From the NCBI GenBank assembly GCA_021801125.1, contig JAJYYI010000102.1, positions 1-46,659 on the forward strand: a DNA stretch of 46,659 nt, given 5' to 3'. Both the position numbers and the translations under genes were made by a program. The notes under the pieces are model-generated. The model searched no databases. It was not told the DNA's origin and worked only from the letters and a program-made list of their open reading frames with translations. Origin of the DNA: Deltaproteobacteria bacterium (GTDB lineage: Bacteria; Desulfobacterota; Binatia; Binatales; Binataceae). Shown here piece by piece: positions 14,482-46,659 of the stretch (position 1 is the stretch's first letter; each line of letters begins with the position of its first letter).

Positions 14482-17400
14482 TCAGGCGGCGGCGCAGAGC
14501 AGTTCCGCCTGTTCGATCACGGTCTGGGTCGCCTTCTCCTGTTTGTCCGGCGGATAACCATACTTGCGCAGTATGCGTTTGACCATCACCCGAAGCTTGG
14601 CGCGGATTGACTCTCTGATCGTCCAATCGATCGAGGTGTTGCGGCGCACAGTATCGGCCAGCTCGCGGGCGATCTGCTTCAAGGTCTCGTCGCCGAGCAC
14701 CTTGACCGCGCTGTCGTTCACTTCGAGTGCCTCGTAGAAAGCCGCCTCTTCCTCGCTAAGCCCGAGATTCTCGCCGCGCCGCTGCGCCTCGCGCATCTCC
14801 TTGGCCAACGCGATTAGCTCCTCGATCACCCGCGCCGTCTCGATCAGCCGGTTCTGATATTTGCGGATTGCCTGGTCGAGCAATTCGGCGAATGAACGCG
14901 CCTGAACGACGCTTTTACGGCGGCGGGTCTTGATCTCGTCTCTCAGAAGGCGCGCCAAGAGTTCGACCGCGACGTTGCGTTGCGGCAGCCCCCGGACCTC
15001 CTCCAGAAAGCGGTCCGAGAGTATCGACAGGTCCGGCTTTTTCAGACCGGCCGCCGAGTAGATATCGATTACCCGGTCCGACGCGATCGCACGCGAGACG
15101 AGCTGGCGTATAGCGTGCTCAATTTTATCTGGCGGTTTTCCGCTGCCGCTTGAAAGTTTCACCAGTCCGGCGCGCACGGCCTGGAAGAAACCCACGTCTT
15201 CGCGAATCCGCAACGCCTCGTCGCTCGGAACCGCCAACGCGAAGGCTTTCGAAAGTTGCGTCACGGCATCCAGGAAGCGGCTCTTTCCGTCGTCCTGCGC
15301 GAGGATATGCTCCTGCGCGGCAGGGAGCAGGCCGAGCCGCTGGGCGGGCGTCCCCGACTTCCAGAGCGACCAATCGAAGCGGTGAAAGAGGCCGCAGCAG
15401 ACTTCGTATTTTTCAAGCATCGCGGCCACCGCCTGCCGCTGGTCGATCGCGGCGTCCCCTTTGCCGCCGCTCTCCGTGTAAGTGGCTAAAGCGCGTTTCA
15501 GCTGCTCGGCGAGCCCGAGGTAGTCGACGATCAGGCCGCCTGGCTTGTCCCTGAAGACCCGATTTACTCGCGCGATCGCTTGCATCAGACCATGCCCGCG
15601 CATCGGCTTGTCAACGTACATCGTATGCAGCGGCCCGGCGTCGAAGCCGGTGAGCCACATGTCCCGCACGATTACGATTTTCAGCGGATCGTTCGCGTCC
15701 TTGAACCGCTCGGCCAGTTTAAGCCGGCGTGCCTTATTCCGGACGTGGGGTTGCCATTCGGGCGGGTCCGAGGCGGAACCCGTCATGACAATCTTTATTG
15801 CTCCCCTGGTATCGTCAGGATCGTGCCAATCCGGCCGCAGCTTGACGATCGCGTTATATAGGTCAACGCAGATCCGCCGGCTCATGGCGACAACCAGGGC
15901 CTTGCCGTCCAGCGCCTCAAGCCGCGCTTCGAAGTGGTTCACCAAGTCGCGCGCGATCAGGTTTATCCGTCTTTCGGTTCCGACCAGAGCCTCAAGCGCC
16001 GCCCACTTGGTTTTAAGCTTCTCCTTGCGCTCGATCTCCTCACCCTCGGTGACCTCCTCGAATTCCGGATCGATCTTCGGCCGCTCCTCAGGCTTGAGCT
16101 CAAGCTTGGCGAGGCGGCTCTCATAGTAAATTGGCACGGTCGCGCCGTCTTCCACGGCGCGCTGGATATCGTAGATATCGATGTAGTCGCCGAAGACCGC
16201 GCGCGTGTTTTTGTCCGCAAGCTCGATCGGCGTTCCGGTAAATCCGATGAACGAGGCGTTCGGCAGCGCGTCGCGCATGTGTTTCGCGAAGCCGTCGATA
16301 AAATCGTACTGGCTACGATGCGCCTCGTCGGCAATCACAACGATATTGCGACGGTCGGAGAGCAACGGATGCCGATCGCCTTTTTCCCCGGGAAAGAACT
16401 TCTGGATAGTCGTAAAGACGATGCCGCCGGAAGCAACCTTGAGCATCTGCCGCAGCTCGGCCCGGCTGTTGGCCTGCACCGGCGCCTGCCGCAATAGATC
16501 GCTGCATCGCGAGAACGTGCCGAAAAGCTGGTCGTCAAGATCGTTGCGGTCGGTGAGCACAACGATCGTCGGGTTCTCCATCGCGGGATGGACTGCGAGC
16601 CGGCCCGCGTAAAACACCATCGTCAGGCTCTTGCCCGAGCCCTGCGTATGCCAGATCACGCCGCAACGCCGATCGCCGGTTGCGCGCGACGCCTCGATTG
16701 TCGCTTCGATAGCTTTGTTGACGGCGTGGAACTGATGATAGCCAGCGATCTTCTTGCTGACCTTGCCGGAACCTTCATCTTCGAAGGCCACAAAGTGGCG
16801 AATCAGGCTCAGGAAGCGACGCTTATCGAAGATGCCCTCGATGACCACCTGCAATTGCGGCACTGTGGCTGGCGCAAGGGATTCGCCGTCGATCGTGCGC
16901 CATGGCATGAAACGCTCGCGGTCGGAAGTCAGCGAGCCAACCCGTGCCTCCACGCCGTCGGAGACGATCATCAGCTCGTTGAACCGGAACAGCGACGGGA
17001 TTTCGTTCTTATAGGTCTGAAGCTGATTGAAGGCGCTCCAGATCGTGGCCTGTTCATCGGCCGGATTTTTGAGTTCGATTGTCGCGAGCGGCAGGCCATT
17101 TGCGAAGACCGCCACATCGGCGCGCCGCTCATGCCGGCCCTCAACGACTGTGAACTGATTCACGGCGAGCCAGTCGTTGTTGTCGGGCTCTTCGAAGTCG
17201 AGCAGGCGGACCTGGACCCCAGCGATCGATCCGTCTTCGCGCCGACGCTCGACTGTCACGCCCTCGGTCAGCATCCGATGGAACGCGCGATTGTTCTGAA
17301 CGAGGGACGGCGACTCAGTGCGCGTGAGTTTGCGGAAGGCCTCTTCGAGCAACTCGGGCGGCAGGGCGGGATTCAGCCGTTCGAGCGCCTCGCGCAGCCG

Positions 17401-17550
17401 CCGCGCGAGGATGACCTCGTGGTAGTCGTCCCGCTCGCCCTTCGGCTCGCCTGGGGCGATCTCGGAGCCAAACTGGACGAGGTAACCTAGGCCTGCCAGC
17501 CATTCAAACGCGGCGGCCTCAACATCGGATTCGGCTAGTGGCATAGGCAT
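14482..17550 (-). CDS. hsdR: Type I restriction enzyme R subunit (HsdR)
   Basis: 1022 residues, full family length. The N-terminal nuclease domain carries D145 and E159-x-K161 (in [10 protein letters not shown] and TIELKN) followed by Q/LQTYK, the PD-(D/E)xK site. The SF2 translocase has Walker A TQGSGKS (302-308), DEAH (408-411), FTGTP, and the late motifs [16 protein letters not shown] and QAIARVNR. A helical C-terminal domain follows. HsdR cuts unmodified DNA after translocation by the HsdM/HsdS complex. It starts 6 nt after HerA, and its own partners hsdS and hsdM are separated from it by SIR2 and HerA, an unusual spread of an hsd locus. Confidence 0.96.
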
Positions 17551-19764: not shown

Positions 19765-21169
19765 TGGTCTCGTCTCCCCCGGCGAGCGCCCGGTGAGTTT
19801 CCATAATTTCGCGACGAATCGTCTCGTCGCGGAGATCGGGAAGCGCGCGGCGGACGAATCCGGTGAACGTTCCAAAGGTCGTCCCCGAAAAGATCCACAC
19901 TCTCGGATCCTTGCGGTCTCTGAGATGACGAACGAATTCGCTTTCGGGCTTCGGGTCAACGATCACCAAGGTGAAGCTAGGAATGGCCAGCGCCTGGCGG
20001 ACGATTGCGCAGATGTGATCATCACCAAATCCGTATCCGACCACGAAGAGAACGCATTGTGGCCTTACGATTGTTGTGGAGAACCGCCGCAAGAGCTCAG
20101 CATAGGGCATTCCTAAGCTCTCACCCCACTTTGCGGGAGTAGGGTAAATGACAAGTGGAGAATTACTTTGGGGCACGTCGCCGTATGCGCGGATCCCATA
20201 TGGATTATCCAGTTCACACTCCTCCGAAACCCATGTGATGGATCCGTGAAGTTTCAGAAGATGTATCACCCGGTCGAGGCGATGCACTCGTCCTTCGGTA
20301 GTTTCGGCCGGAAAATATAGGTCGTGGTCATAGGACTCAGGACGAAAGACGCGACGGACCGTACCGACAAAACCGTCTATTAAAACGACACCCTCTGCAT
20401 CAGCAGCGCGCTCAACCAAGGTGTCGTAGTTAAGAGTGAAAATACTCGCCCGCTTCAGGTTCAACGGTCGGGTCAGAATCTTTCGCAGGACGTCCTTGTA
20501 AGCCTCAAAAGCAGTGGCGGGCGACCCAGCTGTGGGCAATTGGCAAAGCTGTGCTAGGCCCGCGGTTGCTCGACGGAGACATTCGTCAATAGTAGCTGAT
20601 GTGAGAGCCACGCCTGGTGCGGCGTCGAGGCGCAGACGGCCGCCTTCCCTGGGCAAAGCGGCCCGCCAACGGTGGAGTTGAGAGAGCAGGTTTTCATAGT
20701 TTACGGGCAGCGGTTGTGGAGCGTTTGCGAGGGTTTTCCGTCGCGCGAGAATCTGCTCTCGTGTTACTGGTACGTTTGCAGCGCTGGAGCATGCGCGCGC
20801 GGCGGCTACGTAAAAGCACTTGATCCATTGGCGGACAACTGGCCTTTCCGCTCCAGCAATACCATCGTTGATGAGGCGCCTCTCGAGCTCCAGTGGCACC
20901 TCGCCTATCAACGGACCTCCGGCCTCCTTCGACGCACCGGCTCCGAGAAGGAACGACACCGTGTCGGCCTTGAGCAACGTTCCGACTCGAATGTGGAGGT
21001 CAGCTAGGCATTGCCTCCAGTCTTCGGTGAGTCGACGTTGACCATCCTCCTCCGAGGGTCGTTGCGAATGCCTGGCCCGAGTGTGCGCAATCTGATCCTC
21101 ACCGCCAATGACGAAGGACGCTTCGGAGAGTTCGGACCACGGATCGTCGATGTGGTCGCCATTGCTCAC
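19757..21169 (-). CDS. SIR2-family protein, probable NAD-consuming defence effector
   Basis: 470 residues beginning with GTG. Sirtuin-fold signatures are visible: SFLLGAGASKEAG (about 73-85) for NAD binding, FTLNYDTL with N247 and D249, KLHGS with the catalytic-type H308, and GYGFGDDHI (378-386). This is the SIR2_2 type found in bacterial immune systems, which typically degrade NAD+ instead of deacetylating proteins; no zinc-ribbon CxxC pairs of true sirtuins are present. The first ~60 residues look like an added acidic segment. The gene overlaps hsdS by 4 nt (GTGA) and HerA by 8 nt. Pairing with HerA matches the known SIR2-HerA anti-phage system; placement inside an hsd operon is the notable part. 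Confidence 0.88.
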   Translation of the reverse strand: MSNGDHIDDPWSELSEASFVIGGEDQIAHTRARHSQRPSEEDGQRRLTEDWRQCLADLHIRVGTLLKADTVSFLLGAGASKEAGGPLIGEVPLELERRLINDGIAGAERPVVRQWIKCFYVAAARACSSAANVPVTREQILARRKTLANAPQPLPVNYENLLSQLHRWRAALPREGGRLRLDAAPGVALTSATIDECLRRATAGLAQLCQLPTAGSPATAFEAYKDVLRKILTRPLNLKRASIFTLNYDTLVERAADAEGVVLIDGFVGTVRRVFRPESYDHDLYFPAETTEGRVHRLDRVIHLLKLHGSITWVSEECELDNPYGIRAYGDVPQSNSPLVIYPTPAKWGESLGMPYAELLRRFSTTIVRPQCVLFVVGYGFGDDHICAIVRQALAIPSFTLVIVDPKPESEFVRHLRDRKDPRVWIFSGTTFGTFTGFVRRALPDLRDETIRREIMETHRALAGGDETNA

Positions 21170-22431
21170 AAGTCGCGGTCTCCAACTGCGTCTATCCTTA
21201 GCGCTTCTGCAACCTGTCCTGAGGATTGTAGGCGGATCTCTCCCGAGATGAGCTTCGGCAGGAGCGCGTCGCGGATGGCGGCAAGTGTTCGCGATTCCCG
21301 GATATTCTCCTCGATTGACTGAATCAACGGCACCGTGTGGCGATCAAACACCGCCGCGACTGCGGCTGGCGGAAGCACTGTCTCGTATCTCGCCAAGTCG
21401 TGCCAGTTCGTTCGGGGCATCCTCGTGCCGTCGGCTAAAGCGCTTGCGTACTCGACAAGTTCTGTGCTGGACGCAAGGCAGATCGTGAAGGCCCCCCACT
21501 CGGAAGATTTCGGCCTGATCACCAGGATGTCGGTGGAACAGACCCCACTCTCGGGCGCGACGGCGACTTTGTGAAAGTACGGCCGAAGCTTGCCAAAAAG
21601 AACGTCGCCCGCGCTGAACCTAAACTTCCCGCTCTCCAGTCCATCTGACGTTCCCCAGCTGTCGAGGGCTATGCTTCTTTTCGGAATGTGCTCAAGGCCG
21701 ACGTAAACTGCTCCGTCTGGTATTTGCTCCGGCGAGACGCCGATTCGTGGATTGTCGGCAATCTCACCAAATGTTCCCGTGCGCCAGCCGCTTGGGATCT
21801 TGCCCAGTTCCGAGTCTTCGAAGGAGTCGGGGAAGAGGTCGTAGAGGTCGGCGGGGAGGCCGGGGAGCGATTGGCCGCGACGCCATCGGCCGTCCATCTT
21901 GGCGCGGACCGGCTCGAAATCGACGAACCACGACTTGAAGATCGCGCGCGCCATCGCCTCCAGCGTCTCGTTCATCCGCCGGTTCAGTTCGATCTTGTCG
22001 TCCAGCGCGCCGAGTATTGCGGCAATCGCGCGCTGCTCAACGGCGTCCGGGATAGAAATTGGAATGCGGCTGAGAATGTCCTGATTCAATAGCGGCTGAC
22101 CGGAGCCTGCGCGCCAGTTGTTCAGAGCAAGCGTGTTCAGCAAATAAAACAAGTACCGAGGGTCGTTGTCGCCAAGCGCCGTTGCACGAATCGCATTATC
22201 AGTTACCCAACACCGGTCCTTGGCAAAGTAGAGCGAGCCGCAGTAGCTGCCTACACGCCCGATAACAATTGTGGCCTCGTCAGCATTGGCTTCACTAGCA
22301 TAGCCGATGATTCCGTTAGAGCCGTAAACCGGATATGGATTGCCGCTGACGCGCGCCGGACTAGCCCTCCCATTTGCAAACTCGAGCACGCTGCCAAGCG
22401 TTGTTTGCAAAAGATTCCCCGTCATCCCCAA
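21166..22431 (-). CDS. hsdS: Type I restriction specificity subunit (HsdS)
   Basis: 421 residues with two target-recognition domains. The first begins about residue 10 and ends in IPISIPDAVEQRAIAAILGALDDKIELNRRMNETLEAMARAIFKSWFVDFEPVRAK, the central conserved helix; the second begins GKIPSGWRTGTFGEI and ends in the distal conserved helix (about 365-415, IRDALLPKLISGEIRL). HsdS sets the bipartite recognition site for both methylation and cleavage. It is complete and shows no frameshift, unlike hsdM. It lies 55 nt after the YgiT-type gene, and its stop is overlapped by the SIR2 start. Confidence 0.95.
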   Translation of the reverse strand: MGMTGNLLQTTLGSVLEFANGRASPARVSGNPYPVYGSNGIIGYASEANADEATIVIGRVGSYCGSLYFAKDRCWVTDNAIRATALGDNDPRYLFYLLNTLALNNWRAGSGQPLLNQDILSRIPISIPDAVEQRAIAAILGALDDKIELNRRMNETLEAMARAIFKSWFVDFEPVRAKMDGRWRRGQSLPGLPADLYDLFPDSFEDSELGKIPSGWRTGTFGEIADNPRIGVSPEQIPDGAVYVGLEHIPKRSIALDSWGTSDGLESGKFRFSAGDVLFGKLRPYFHKVAVAPESGVCSTDILVIRPKSSEWGAFTICLASSTELVEYASALADGTRMPRTNWHDLARYETVLPPAAVAAVFDRHTVPLIQSIEENIRESRTLAAIRDALLPKLISGEIRLQSSGQVAEALRIDAVGDRDL

Positions 22432-27300: not shown

Positions 27301-28470
27301 ATGGCGACGTTGGATCGAATCGATAAAGCGCTCAAGCAGGGCGCCGAGGACAAGAATGTTGCCGGGGTCGTCGCGACGGCGGCGACCAGGAAAGGCGAGA
27401 TTTATCGAGGGGCATTCGGCAAGCGCGATCTTTCGAAAGCTGCTGACATGACGACCGATACCGTATTCTGGATCGCTTCGATGACCAAGGCGGTCACTTC
27501 TGTCAGCGCAATGCAATTGGTGGAACAAGGCAAGCTTTCACTCGACGCGCCGCTCAGCAAGGTGCTGCCGGAGATGGAATCGGTCCAAGTGCTGGAGGGG
27601 TTCGGCGCTGATGGAGAGCCGCGGCTGCGCGCGCCGAAACGGCCGGTTACGCTGCGCAATCTGCTGACGCACACCGCGGGTTTTTCCTACGACATGTGGA
27701 ACCCCGACATCATCCGATATATGCAGTACGCCAAGGTGCCCGGCATTATCACATGCGAGAACGCGGCCCTGCGCACGCCGCTGGTTTTTGACCCTGGCGA
27801 CCGATGGGAGTACGGCATCAACGTCGACTGGGTCGGCAAGGCTGTCGAGGCCGCCAGCGGGAAGTCACTTGAAGTCTATTTTCGCGACCATATTTTCGGG
27901 CCGCTGGGTATGGAGGATACCCGCTTCGTGTTGACGCCCGAGCAGCGCTCTCGCCTTGCTTCGATCCATCAGCGCAAAGCGGACGGCTCGTTGGAGCCGA
28001 TTCCGTTTGAAGTCCCGCAGAAGCCCGAGTTCTTTATGGGCGGTGGCGGGCTCTACGGTACGGCTGGGGATTATCTGACCTTCCTGCAGATGTTCCTGCA
28101 CGGAGGCCGGTTCAAGGGAGCGCAGGTGCTGCGCGAGGAGACTGTGAGATTGATGGGCTCCAATCAGATCGGCAAGCTCAACGTCGGCGTGATGAAGACG
28201 GCGATACCCGACCTGTCGAACGACGTCGACCTCTTTCCGGGGATGGAGCTTAAATGGGGATTGGGTTTTCTCATCAACACTGAGAAACTGCCGACCGGGC
28301 GCAGCGCCGGAGGCTTGGCATGGGCGGGGCTGGCCAACACCTATTTTTGGATCGATCCGGTTCAGGGCGTGGCCGGCGTGTTCCTCGCTCATACGCTGCC
28401 CTTCGCCGACCCCGCGGCCCTGCAGCTCTTAGTGCAATTTGAGAGCGGTGTTTACGAGGCGCTAGCCTGA
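27301..28470 (+). CDS. Serine hydrolase, beta-lactamase/EstB family
   Basis: 389 residues from the ATG at 27301, chosen because it follows AGGGGGG at good spacing; the upstream extension to 27142 overlaps the pyrE promoter area and has no family features. The nucleophile motif SMTKA (S-x-x-K), LRNLLTHTAGFSYD, and the tyrosine in WEYGINVDWVGKAVE are those of class C beta-lactamase-like hydrolases. FMGGGGLYGTAGDYLTFLQM is another conserved block. No signal peptide is seen, so the enzyme is probably cytoplasmic and more likely an esterase (EstB-like, ester or lactone substrate) than a drug-resistance beta-lactamase. It is followed by asd. Confidence 0.9.
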   Translation: MATLDRIDKALKQGAEDKNVAGVVATAATRKGEIYRGAFGKRDLSKAADMTTDTVFWIASMTKAVTSVSAMQLVEQGKLSLDAPLSKVLPEMESVQVLEGFGADGEPRLRAPKRPVTLRNLLTHTAGFSYDMWNPDIIRYMQYAKVPGIITCENAALRTPLVFDPGDRWEYGINVDWVGKAVEAASGKSLEVYFRDHIFGPLGMEDTRFVLTPEQRSRLASIHQRKADGSLEPIPFEVPQKPEFFMGGGGLYGTAGDYLTFLQMFLHGGRFKGAQVLREETVRLMGSNQIGKLNVGVMKTAIPDLSNDVDLFPGMELKWGLGFLINTEKLPTGRSAGGLAWAGLANTYFWIDPVQGVAGVFLAHTLPFADPAALQLLVQFESGVYEALA

Positions 28471-28502
28471 GTTTAATTTACAGGTCAAGCGCGGACAAAC
28501 CT

Positions 28503-28545
28503 GCGACGCCGGCCACCTCGACGCAAGTGCGGTAGCCGGCGTCGC
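28503..28545 (+). terminator. Hairpin between the serine hydrolase and asd
   Basis: GCGACGCCGGC and its exact complement (28535-28545) form an 11-bp stem with a 21-nt loop that can itself pair CAC with GTG. It lies 33 nt after the hydrolase stop and 33 nt before the asd start. No U-tract follows; it could terminate the first gene or act as a leader structure of asd. Confidence 0.4.
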
Positions 28546-41526: not shown

Positions 41527-42135
41527 ATGAAACAACATCACTCTGCTTCTTCTCGCCATGATCGGCATGGAGCACGGCAGCCCGAGCGTTTCAACGTGGA
41601 GAAGGCCGCGCTCATGGACGATCCTCAGAGATTCGAGTACCTGCCTCCCAGCCACATCATCAGTCTTCTGAAGCTCGCTCCTGGGATGCTGGTGGTTGAC
41701 TATGGCACCGGCACCGGGACGTACGCGATACAGATCGCCTCGGCCCATCCCGAAGTAACGGTGGTCGCGTACGACGAACAGCCTCAGATGCTTGAGCATC
41801 TGCGGGCCAAGCCGCAAGCGAAACTCTCCAATATTCGAATCGCGCTTCCAGAGCAGGTAACCGAGTTCCTGGGTCGCGCCGACCGCGTGCTGGCACTCAA
41901 CGTCCTTCATGAACTTGGCGACGAAGCGCTAAAGGAGATGCGGGAACTGCTTGCGGCAGACGGAATAGCGCTGGTGATCGACTGGAACGCCGAGATCGAG
42001 CGACCGTATGGTCCGCCGCGTGAGCATACCTACGCACTTTCGCAAGCGGTGGAGCGGATGGAGACCGCGGGTTTCTCGATAGAGCGGCTGCCCGCTTTGC
42101 GATACCATTTTGTGTTCCGCGCGATGCGTCGATAG
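41527..42135 (+). CDS. Class I SAM-dependent methyltransferase
   Basis: 202 residues. Motif I VVDYGTGTGTYAIQIA and the acidic VAYDE at the end of strand 2 bind SAM; VLALNVLHELGD and ALVIDWNAE are the later motifs. The N-terminus is histidine-rich (MKQHHSASSRHDRHG), a possible metal-binding tail. Substrate unknown; methyltransferases of this small type often occur beside sulfide or arsenic detoxification genes. It is 145 nt after the RND gene, so it may or may not be in that operon. Confidence 0.85.
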   Translation: MKQHHSASSRHDRHGARQPERFNVEKAALMDDPQRFEYLPPSHIISLLKLAPGMLVVDYGTGTGTYAIQIASAHPEVTVVAYDEQPQMLEHLRAKPQAKLSNIRIALPEQVTEFLGRADRVLALNVLHELGDEALKEMRELLAADGIALVIDWNAEIERPYGPPREHTYALSQAVERMETAGFSIERLPALRYHFVFRAMRR

Positions 42136-44060: not shown

Positions 44061-44897
44061 ATGAGCATCAGCGAGACTCAATCAGCGTTCGAAAATATTC
44101 GGCTCGACCGGCGCGGTCACGTCCTGCATATCGAACTCAGCCGCCCCGAGCGCTTAAACGCGTTGTCACGCGCGACGCTTCTCGAGCTGAATCGGGCGAT
44201 GGATGAGGCCGAGGGCGACGCGAATATCCGAGCGATCGTAATCAGCGGCGCGGGCCGGGCTTTTTCATCCGGTTTCGACCTGAAGGATCAGGCCCAAGAG
44301 CAGCCCAGCGGCGCCGAAGTCTGGCGGCGGAGACTTGCGCTTTCGTTTAACACCACGATGCGCTTCTGGCGCTGCCCAAAGCCGACCGTCGCCGCGGTGC
44401 ATGGGGCGTGTCTTGCGGGGGCGTTTGAACTTGCGCTGGCTTGCGACATCACGATCGCCGCGGAGGGCGCCATATTCGGCGAACCGGAGCTTAAGTTCGG
44501 CGCGGGAATCGTGACGATGCTGCTACCGTGGGTGACCGGGCCCAAGCAGGCGAAGCACACGATTCTTTGCGGTCTGGACAACATCAGCGCGGCCGAGGCG
44601 CTGCGACTCGGATTCGTCAGTCAAGTGGTACCAGCCGGGACCCATGTTGAGGCCGCGCTTCGGATAGCGGCCGACATCGCGGCGATCGATCCTGAACTCG
44701 TAATGGAAACCAAGAAGGCGATTAACCGATGCTACGAAATTCAGGGAATCGAGACGGCGCTGAAAGCGGCCGTCGATACCGATTTACTGATCGAATCCCA
44801 CGGGTCGCCAGACAAGAAAGAATTCATGACTATGGCCCGCCAGCACGGCCTAAAGGCCGCGCTGGCTTGGCGCGACTCTCGCTTCAATTCAGAATAG
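44061..44897 (+). CDS. Enoyl-CoA hydratase/isomerase family protein
   Basis: 278 residues of the crotonase fold. VISGAGRAFSSGFDLKDQ forms the first oxyanion-hole region, AAVHGACLAGAFELALACD the second, and IFGEPELKFG contains the usual catalytic glutamate position. It begins 6 nt after the acyl-CoA ligase stop, with AAGGA eight bases upstream of the ATG. Together they would activate and hydrate an unsaturated acid. Exact substrate unknown. Confidence 0.92.
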   Translation: MSISETQSAFENIRLDRRGHVLHIELSRPERLNALSRATLLELNRAMDEAEGDANIRAIVISGAGRAFSSGFDLKDQAQEQPSGAEVWRRRLALSFNTTMRFWRCPKPTVAAVHGACLAGAFELALACDITIAAEGAIFGEPELKFGAGIVTMLLPWVTGPKQAKHTILCGLDNISAAEALRLGFVSQVVPAGTHVEAALRIAADIAAIDPELVMETKKAINRCYEIQGIETALKAAVDTDLLIESHGSPDKKEFMTMARQHGLKAALAWRDSRFNSE

Positions 44898-45166
44898 TTG
44901 CTGCCGCGGCGGATGTGGTGGTGTCACCGCCGCCCTGCCGATTTGCATTCGCGGCGCGCTGCGCGAGCGCTTGGCGCGAAAGACGCGCTAATTTGTGCGG
45001 TTTGCGCTTCGGCCAGACGACGCGAAGATTGAGCGGAGCGGCCAAATCCTAGAACGCACGATCGAAGGCCTGCGCAGCCACAGCTTTCAGCACCGCGGGC
45101 AAGCCGGAGTTTCCAATCCGCGAGCCTACCAACCGCGTGATGAGAAACGCGGCCAAAGTTGGATGT

Positions 45167-45777
45167 TCATTTCTCCACCGAGGGTGCGAGAAGGCCACCA
45201 AGGCTTATCAGGGTGAAATAGAGCGGGATCGCGGCGTAAATCGCTATGGCCAGAGGAGGCAACACAAGCGAGCATAGCGTTCCGACGAGATAAAACGTCG
45301 GGCCGAGCAGCGATATACGCACGCGCCGGCGGCGCTCGGCCTGCGGGGTTTCCCGTTCATGAGCTGCCCGGGCAGGGAGGCGTAACGGCGCGTGAACCAG
45401 AAAGAGATTCCCGCCAGGCAACATACCGCTCCATAGAAAGCCGTAGCGACAGGCTGGTTTGGATGATGCCCAAACAGGGCCATGGGGAAGGGGATGAAGG
45501 CGAGCCAAAAACGGAACAAGTTGTTCACCCATAGCAGCGGCCGGTCCACGCGCTCCAGATCGTGCACGAAATTATGAGGAGTTTTCTACCATACCGCGCA
45601 GACGAGGAAACTGATCACATTGGCGAGGAAACTGGGAGCTAAAACAAGATGTGCCGCCAGCATCTCGCGGCTAATTGCGGTGGTTTTCATCGGCGGCGCG
45701 TGTATTTCGAGAACGAGCGGCGTGATCACAATCGCGATCACGCCGCCGCTGAAGGATTCAAACCTATTTTTCGGCAT
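45167..45777 (-). pseudogene. Second TMEM175-type channel gene, stop codon and frameshift
   Basis: The first part reads NRFESFSGGVIAIVITPLVLEIHAPP and ends at a TAG at 45586-45588; the same frame continues FVHDLERVDRPLLWVNNLFRFWLAFIPFPMALFGHHPNQPVA. A frame change around 45370-45410 leads to the last helices (ISLLGPTFYLVGTLCSLVLPPLAIAIYAAIPLYF). The FSD motif is FSG here, another sign of decay. It resembles the broken copy at 29981-30714 in order of segments, but the proteins differ, so they are diverged paralogues, not a recent duplication. Confidence 0.7.
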
Positions 45778-46284
45778 AGCCCAATCCTCTCTGCCCTTAG
45801 TCCGCTTCAGTTTTGCGTCGAGGCCACGGGCCGCGCCAACTCGCGCCGGATGACGATGCGCGAAGGTTGGCCACTTGATGAAGGAAGAAGCGGGCTACGC
45901 AGGAGATGGTGCAGAGTGCGGCTTCGAATTTGGGAGTGTCTTGGCGGATGCGTCGCGCCGCCAGTCAAGCGGCTTCGTCATGCTGGGCCAGCTCCGTGAC
46001 AAAGGAATCCGGATCAAGCTTGCGTGGGTCGTAGATGTTTCATTTTCTTCAATTTCCATCGATTCTTGAGCGGAATGTCGGATCGACCCGAATCGCGCTC
46101 ATCATGAATAACAGGATGCGGACTGGTGCGACCGCCCTTTCGTAGAGCTTTTCTACCCAGACGCGAAAGCGATCGGCGCCTTGCCGCAATTTCATACGTG
46201 GTCGGGAGCCGATGCTTGGCAAAGATGGTCGCTTTTTTTTCGCGAACGCAGGTTTGCCAGGGCCCACGAGGCTTGGGGTTTAGG
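45778..46284. other. Region without a supported gene next to a tRNA fragment
   Basis: A minus-strand frame (46049-46267) encodes 72 residues with a central Leu/Ile-rich stretch but no recognisable family; it may be a remnant. Nothing else could be supported. Confidence 0.4.
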
Positions 46285-46328
46285 TGGCGTCCCCGACGGG
46301 ATTTGAACCCGTGTTACCGGCGTGAAAG
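46285..46328 (-). tRNA. 3' half of a tRNA-Glu gene (attachment-site remnant)
   Basis: On the minus strand, the sequence from the anticodon loop (CTTTCAC, anticodon TTC) through the anticodon-stem half GCCGG, variable loop, T arm (ACGGG-TTCAAAT-CCCGT), acceptor strand CGGGGAC, discriminator G and CCA matches bacterial tRNA-Glu. The 5' half is absent: upstream bases do not form the D arm or the opposite acceptor strand. This is what is left at one end after an integrase inserts an element at the anticodon loop and supplies its own 3' half to the intact tRNA at the other end. Confidence 0.85.
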
Positions 46329-46351
46329 GTCGAAGTAGTATTGTCTCCCCA

Positions 46352-46521
46352 TGTCCATTTAGTAGTAAAATCGCGGCTTTTTCGCTTGCTCCATGTCCAG
46401 CAAGCGCGCTATTGTCCGCCAGTGTCCAGCGTGGTGGCTGTCAAATTGGCTGTCAAACTTCCGGCGCCTCGAAGCAGCCGGCCGGCGATAGTCAGTCACG
46501 CTGGCTGTCACGTGGCTGTCA
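46352..46521 (+). repeat. Clustered direct repeats beside the tRNA fragment
   Basis: TGTCCA occurs at 46352, 46394 and 46423 (TGTCCG at 46413), and TGGCTGTCA at 46435, 46447, 46502 and 46513. The second set is arranged in two pairs, with starts 11-12 bp apart, about one helical turn. Short direct repeats of this kind beside an attachment core are typical arm-type sites for a tyrosine integrase and its accessory proteins. Confidence 0.7.
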
Positions 46522-46553
46522 GATACTCAGTCGAGTCTATGGGGGGAGACGCT

Positions 46554-46659
46554 ATGAGCAACGACGATTATCAAGTCGATCAGCTCGCCGAACTATATTT
46601 CGCCGATTGTGAAGAACATCGCGAGCCTGTAGGGCCGCGGTCGTTCACCGCGTGGTTGT
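46554..46659 (+). CDS. Partial ORF at the right edge, first gene of an integrated element
   Basis: An ATG at 46554 preceded by GGGGGGAG opens a frame that runs off the window: it begins MSNDDYQVDQLAELYFADC and continues for 35 codons. The strong ribosome site and acidic, protein-like composition support it. I do not recognise the family. It lies just inside the tRNA-linked boundary, where small excisionase or cargo genes are common, but no HTH is visible in the part present. Confidence 0.55.
   Translation, partial: MSNDDYQVDQLAELYFADCEEHREPVGPRSFTAWL

Follow-up and report, generated by a model that had tools for sequence, protein, structure and literature searches.

The window analysed here is the whole of contig C13 (46,659 bp), from a 3.5-Mb draft genome (G000) in 150 contigs that is 96% complete with 4.2% contamination, and the draft assembly holds no sequence to the right of position 46659. 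Near this end an enoyl-CoA hydratase gene (44061-44897) precedes a 1.4-kb flank (44898-46284) that has no clear gene and is single-copy in the genome at E ≤ 0.001. Then follows, on the minus strand, the 3′ half of a tRNA-Glu(TTC) gene (46285-46329). This 45-bp core begins with the final base of the 5′ anticodon stem and ends with CCA (minus-strand sequence CCTTTCACGCCGGTAACACGGGTTCAAATCCCGTCGGGGACGCCA), and its similarity to intact tRNA-Glu drops sharply at the anticodon stem. Since only half a gene is present, it is as expected that neither ARAGORN nor Rfam at gathering scores called a tRNA in the window; a 43-bp stretch of the core was found once in the window versus 0.00 times in 100 shuffles (up to 3 mismatches). 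A plasmid search gave 48 records, none covering 80% of the query, and the 20 listed cover 13-14% of it, the tRNA part. On the far side of the core, a presumed island ORF starts at 46554 (46554-46658, plus strand). GGGGGGA lies upstream of the start, where the initial annotation saw a strong ribosome site, but just 35 codons fit before the contig ends, and the best matches of the ORF in 16 other loci compared, the C50 locus described below included, had E values of 0.14 or worse. Elsewhere in the window, HsdR is encoded at 14482-17550 (TIGR00348, 630 bits), with a weak MAD5 specificity-subunit match nearby (21166-22431; 21.6 bits vs a cut-off of 400).

Between the half gene and this ORF lie two classes of direct repeat, all on the plus strand. 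The more conspicuous is TGGCTGTCA, whose copies start at 46435, 46447, 46502 and 46513. Four copies in 87 bp is far above chance, and the window as a whole contains 5, where shuffles average 0.27 and never exceed 2, which bears out the fourfold repeat reported from the initial reading. The copies make up an arm-type pair TGGCTGTCA-N3-TGGCTGTCA at 46435-46455 and a second one, TGGCTGTCA-N2-TGGCTGTCA, at 46502-46521; the right ends of two complete related elements (G004 and G016, see below) have no such second pair. The other class has the form GTCC-N6-GTCC and is a candidate excisionase or accessory site. It is represented by GTCTCCCCATGTCC (46343-46356, with one mismatch), which adjoins the core, and by GTCCGCCAGTGTCC (46414-46427), which ends 7 bp before the first arm pair, with a single TGTCCA half-site (46394-46399) between the two. 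The three TGTCCA copies of the initial annotation are thus present (46352, 46394 and 46423) but not striking on their own, the hexamer being common (17 in the window, 12.15 expected, 17 reached by 7 of 100 shuffles), and the hexamer counts for more only where it forms part of the GTCC-N6-GTCC repeats found in related right-end sites.

An intact tRNA-Glu and an integrase on a second contig

The initial annotation predicted a second copy of the core within an intact tRNA-Glu gene and an integrase next to it. Both are found on contig C50. The assembly contains one other copy of the core when up to 3 mismatches are allowed, at C50:6570-6614, identical at 45 of 45 positions and located within an intact tRNA-Glu (C50:6537-6614, ARAGORN). 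A tyrosine integrase gene (C50:6715-7866, minus strand; PF00589 1.1e-29, PF14659 1.2e-12, phrog_1 2.1e-79) is convergent with the tRNA gene at a distance of 100 bp, and between the integrase stop and the tRNA lies TGGCTGTCAAACTGGCTGTCA, an arm pair of the same kind as at window 46435-46455 (C50:6688-6708). No second integrase match was obtained from this genome at E ≤ 1e-40. Beside the integrase gene a small protein is encoded (C50:7847-8710). The genes before the tRNA read, from their translations, as murC, murB, ftsQ, ftsA, ftsZ and a JAB-domain gene, with a family match for the JAB domain only. The order on C50 is therefore tRNA, integrase, island, and that on C13 is island, tRNA 3′ half, chromosome; the displaced fragment has the same polarity as the tRNA, and the repeat-bearing non-tRNA sequence is on its 5′ side (window minus strand), which is the required orientation.

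On this evidence, and on that of the same geometry in relatives, the region is very probably the integrase-distal end (attR) of a genomic island inserted into tRNA-Glu(TTC) by a tyrosine integrase. We infer that C50 and C13 carry the two ends of a single island, which would measure at least 28.6 kb (C50 6615-34885 plus C13 46330-46659, the gap uncounted). The earlier proposal of an element running rightward from about 46330 is supported by the partner and by the end repeats; its two ends are nevertheless on separate contigs, and since neither C13 nor C50 shares its last 120 bp with any other contig of the assembly, so that the two are not joined by end overlap, the joining middle of the island is unseen. 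With a 150-contig draft and 4.2% contamination, it could be that the two contigs come from different strains or organisms binned together. We regard this as very unlikely, because both contigs resemble the same-genus genome G001: the FtsZ of C50 is 82% identical to that of G001, and C13 has six DNA blocks matching it at 73-83%, five of them colinear.

The presumed island on C50 carries a primase-like protein and a BREX-like defence set, after which pieces related to the first module recur. The BREX-like set (L003:14222-19998 and L004:121-9111, both on C50) shares with BREX defence islands BrxL, which scores above curated cut-offs, a PglZ-domain protein, which is above the Pfam cut-off and below the BREX-specific ones, and a PglXI-like methylase. 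It differs in that the large ATPase falls far below the BrxC model (17 bits vs a cut-off of 400, with a low-scoring DUF6079 match) and that two small neighbouring proteins match no model. A PHROG scan of nine island proteins gave matches for the integrase and the primase-like protein only. The gene pieces on the two sides of the set (L003:11807-13525 vs L004:12348-14807) are 53-92% identical over 39-81 residues, as if two islands had been stacked or a module duplicated. As the island carries a defence set of this kind, its ends tell what may move along with it.

Relatives of the integrase and the two repeat classes

At E ≤ 1e-40 the integrase had 14 matches in 10 of the 41 genomes of the family. 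Seven make up a near group, namely that of C50 and six at 48-58% identity (G004, G012, G016a and G053a-c). By ARAGORN, four of the seven have a tRNA neighbour, namely Glu(TTC) in G000, Arg(TCG) in G004, Glu(CTC) in G016a and Arg(CCT) in G012; the three relatives among these are 48-51% identical to the C50 integrase and all have the TGGCTGTCA pair. The repeat is at most 75 bp from the match end and in the expected orientation in G000, G004, G012 and G053c (where the second copy has one mismatch), adjoins the tRNA at 1.1 kb from the integrase match in G016a, and is in the opposite orientation in G053b. G053a is without a pair of its own in place, and its nearest copies, 319-332 bp off and in the opposite orientation, seem to belong to G053c on the same contig. 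In the seven remaining matches (32-43% identical) the repeat is absent within 400 bp. In an integrase tree, the seven rows labelled as motif carriers, G053a counted among them despite a nearest repeat that seems to belong to G053c, need 2 changes, and none of 500 shuffles was as low. They are no strict clade: G043a, which has a different repeat, falls among them, and the bootstrap does not settle the matter.

Scanning IMG/VR with the integrase returned 60 stretches with the pattern, none of them relatives, and scanning GTDB returned 34 stretches with 4 relatives, the best 38% identical. Among the 10 matches listed from 3184 phage records, identity was 34-38% (Thermus and Mycobacterium phages and one faecal phage).

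Two complete 13-kb elements show both ends on a single contig. In G004 (C8 28463-41647) the tRNA-Arg gene occupies 41573-41647 and the core recurs over 44 bp at 28463-28506; in G016 (C7 67505-80743) the gene is tRNA-Glu(CTC), at 80669-80743, and the core recurs over 42 bp at 67505-67546. Both elements are bounded on either side by a core copy together with a single arm pair. In an alignment, the gap between the distal core and the arm pair is 105 bp in G004, 94 bp in G016 and 105 bp in the window. This bears on whether the fragment might be what is left of a decayed tRNA gene, unconnected with any mobile element, as one could suppose from the presence of half a tRNA only and from the gene-poor flank (44898-46284). 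Arm repeats spaced as in complete elements, 0 differences over 45 bp and the sharp loss of similarity at the anticodon stem all argue otherwise, and together with the C50 partner the conserved attR anatomy stands so strongly against decay that we give it hardly any credence.

The pattern TGGCTGTCA-N2-5-TGGCTGTCA was surveyed in all 41 family genomes and occurs at 29 sites in 14 of them, while a reversed-pattern control gave 0. An intact tRNA lies within 80 bp on one side of nine pairs (Glu-TTC 2, Glu-CTC 2, Arg-TCG 2, Arg-CCT, Phe and Thr), and one more has a tRNA-Glu(CTC) 3′ half on that side. For nine pairs, both window pairs included, a tRNA T-arm of the right polarity is found on the other side, 125-149 bp away, the distance for the window's second pair being 203 bp; the remaining 10 have no tRNA sequence in the expected place by a loose T-arm pattern. 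Five of the pairs are in this genome, two on C13, one on C50, one on C45 (6227-6248, L109), about 60 bp from an intact tRNA-Thr, and one on C53 (20288-20309, L115), so that the motif is not unique to the tRNA-Glu island. The C45 and C53 pairs are probably island remnants, without a further integrase match at E ≤ 1e-40.

The second repeat, GTCC-N6-GTCC (10 bp start to start, one mismatch allowed), was defined on three right ends with two copies each. In eight further right-end-type sites, decayed ones included, it gave 14 matches in seven sites (1.20 on average in shuffles, with 14 reached in 0 of 2000), only L101 lacking it, and other GTCC spacings in the range 7-15 gave 0 to 3 matches in the same sites. 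The test set omits the G016 near-copies L111 and L114, the short L103a, and L089, L094, L106 and L115, whose side is unknown. As one test site, L116, is identical to the derivation site L102 at 110 of 125 positions, the count was also made without it and came to 12 matches in seven sites, six of them with a match (0 of 2000 shuffles). Taken by themselves, the four unknown-side segments gave 2 matches, both in one segment, a number reached by 113 of 2000 shuffles. GTCC-N7-GTCC (11 bp start to start) had 1 match in 13 full-length right-end segments. At left ends, the repeat was found at 0 of 10 sites on the tRNA side and once (G004) on the integrase side. Measured from the arm pair, most copies sit at -21, about -40, -81 or about -92, at intervals close to full turns of the helix. 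By eye, the test site L097 (G013:C80:3445-3465) has its right-end-type array beside an apparent 5′ half of tRNA-Arg(CCT), which rather than a 3′ half would mean a reversed insertion polarity.

The chromosomal flank and tRNA-Glu as an insertion site

The genes of the window from 29.0 kb to the enoyl-CoA hydratase are partly colinear with contig C24 of G001. Beyond the hydratase, G001 continues into different chromosomal genes, with the tRNA-Glu core absent within 17 kb, and much of that stretch matches contigs C35 and C82 of our own genome. Synteny by this comparison thus breaks within the 1.4 kb between hydratase and core. An empty site was not found, as none of the tRNA-Glu surroundings in nine relatives has the window flank in place; some pairs of them have a downstream gene in common, but none is common to all. 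One possible exception, which we did not count, is a methyltransferase gene of G015 that is about 50% identical to window 41527-42135 and lies 6.7 kb from tRNA-Glu in the opposite orientation. The AMP-binding gene of the window had no match at E ≤ 1e-80 in eight relatives and is uninformative as a flank marker at that threshold. In G001, by eye, a TGACAGCCA repeat comes after tRNA-Glu, and transposase-like and other genes then extend to the contig end; TGACAGCCA also follows tRNA-Glu in G006, G015 and G016. An apparent tRNA-Leu 3′ fragment, again read by eye, lies 0.7 kb after the tRNA-Glu of G001 near another TGACAGCCA (L037:3430-3500) and is perhaps a second island end.

The synteny break so near the core and the TGACAGCCA repeat after tRNA-Glu in four genomes could mean that the fragment is the attR of another island than that of C50, with islands arranged in tandem in tRNA-Glu or with a rearrangement having moved the attR. 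The related gene pieces that bracket the BREX-like set, as in stacked islands, would fit as well. However, the assembly has no third core copy within 3 mismatches and the genome a single integrase match at E ≤ 1e-40, and we consider it rather improbable that the fragment belongs to a different island; the far end of the C50 island remains the preferred reading. The best substitute for an uninterrupted site is offered by G045, where an orphan 3′ half of tRNA-Glu(TTC) is accompanied by the same arms. Its flank, starting some 250 bp outward, is 91% identical over 6,655 bp to DNA of the same-genus G007 that starts 2.6 kb downstream of an intact tRNA-Glu; the intact tRNA-Glu of G045 was not found in the G045 genome, and the comparison lends indirect support.

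The locus looks like an insertion hot spot, with two copies of the tRNA-Glu(TTC) 3′ half present in 5 of the 41 genomes. Both are inside intact tRNAs in G041, one is intact and one a 3′ half in G013, and G053 has a 3′ half and a copy truncated at a contig end. In G005 a single contig has both, separated by 7.4 kb, and the distal copy adjoins a different integrase (PF00589, 3.3e-29). This whole 7.4-kb element (G005:C15 194614-202058, L152), which has its integrase at the distal end, also encodes a DUF3854 protein of 772 aa and a small protein with a treble-clef match below threshold.

Proposed insertion mechanism and related systems

From the arrangement of the two ends one can presume that strand exchange by the integrase took place around the anticodon loop, within the 45-bp core. 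The tRNA at the integrase end, on C50, would have been restored by the 3′ half that the island brought with it, and the original 3′ half would have been pushed to the island's other end, in the window. With its 3′ half supplied by the island, tRNA-Glu would stay functional in the host, and the island may still be mobile. In the attP site of phage lambda, the P arm has arm-type and Xis sites, and the P′ arm is next to int. The island resembles it in having arm-type repeats on both sides and another class of direct repeat nearly restricted to the integrase-distal arm; it differs in the sequences, in the 10-bp spacing of the second repeat and in its tRNA core, and its excisionase-like sites are candidates. 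The TGGCTGTCA pairs would be the arm-type sites bound by the integrase, since they are at both ends and go with the integrase group across tRNA targets, and GTCC-N6-GTCC would be the probable site for an excisionase or other direction-setting accessory protein, since it is almost confined to the integrase-distal end, as are the lambda Xis sites.

The element is a further case of a well-known kind of island, and the principle is textbook. The signature of a tRNA with a displaced fragment, and the crossover subsite in the anticodon loop, are described for genomic islands in the Islander paper (PMC4383910). As in the tRNA-gene islands catalogued there, the present case has an intact tRNA, a 3′ fragment in the same orientation and a tyrosine integrase; unlike in them, the two ends are on separate contigs. 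Integrases with arm sites are described in PMC8138268; with the arm-binding-domain tyrosine recombinases presented there the C50 integrase shares SAM-like and catalytic domains (PF14659, PF00589) and repeats near the recombination sites. What was read by eye as half a tRNA is now an island end with a tested partner, and the arm pair with the distal GTCC repeat marks the ends of related islands, decayed ones included.

It is conceivable, though we hold it with some doubt, that one integrase group keeps a fixed att chassis while its core is swapped among at least tRNA-Glu(TTC), Glu(CTC), Arg(TCG) and Arg(CCT), and perhaps Thr and Phe. By chassis we mean the TGGCTGTCA pairs at both ends, with GTCC-N6-GTCC at roughly turn-spaced positions at the distal end. 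If so, the chassis would be a signature by which even decayed islands can be found, and the islands would form a natural series showing how an integrase changes its target without changing its arm and excision sites.

Other integrases have, by eye, paired repeats of their own, GGTTAGCAAA-like at tRNA-SeC (L063, L066) and TGGTGCCAA at tRNA-Glu in G005 (L152), which suggests one arm motif per integrase group.
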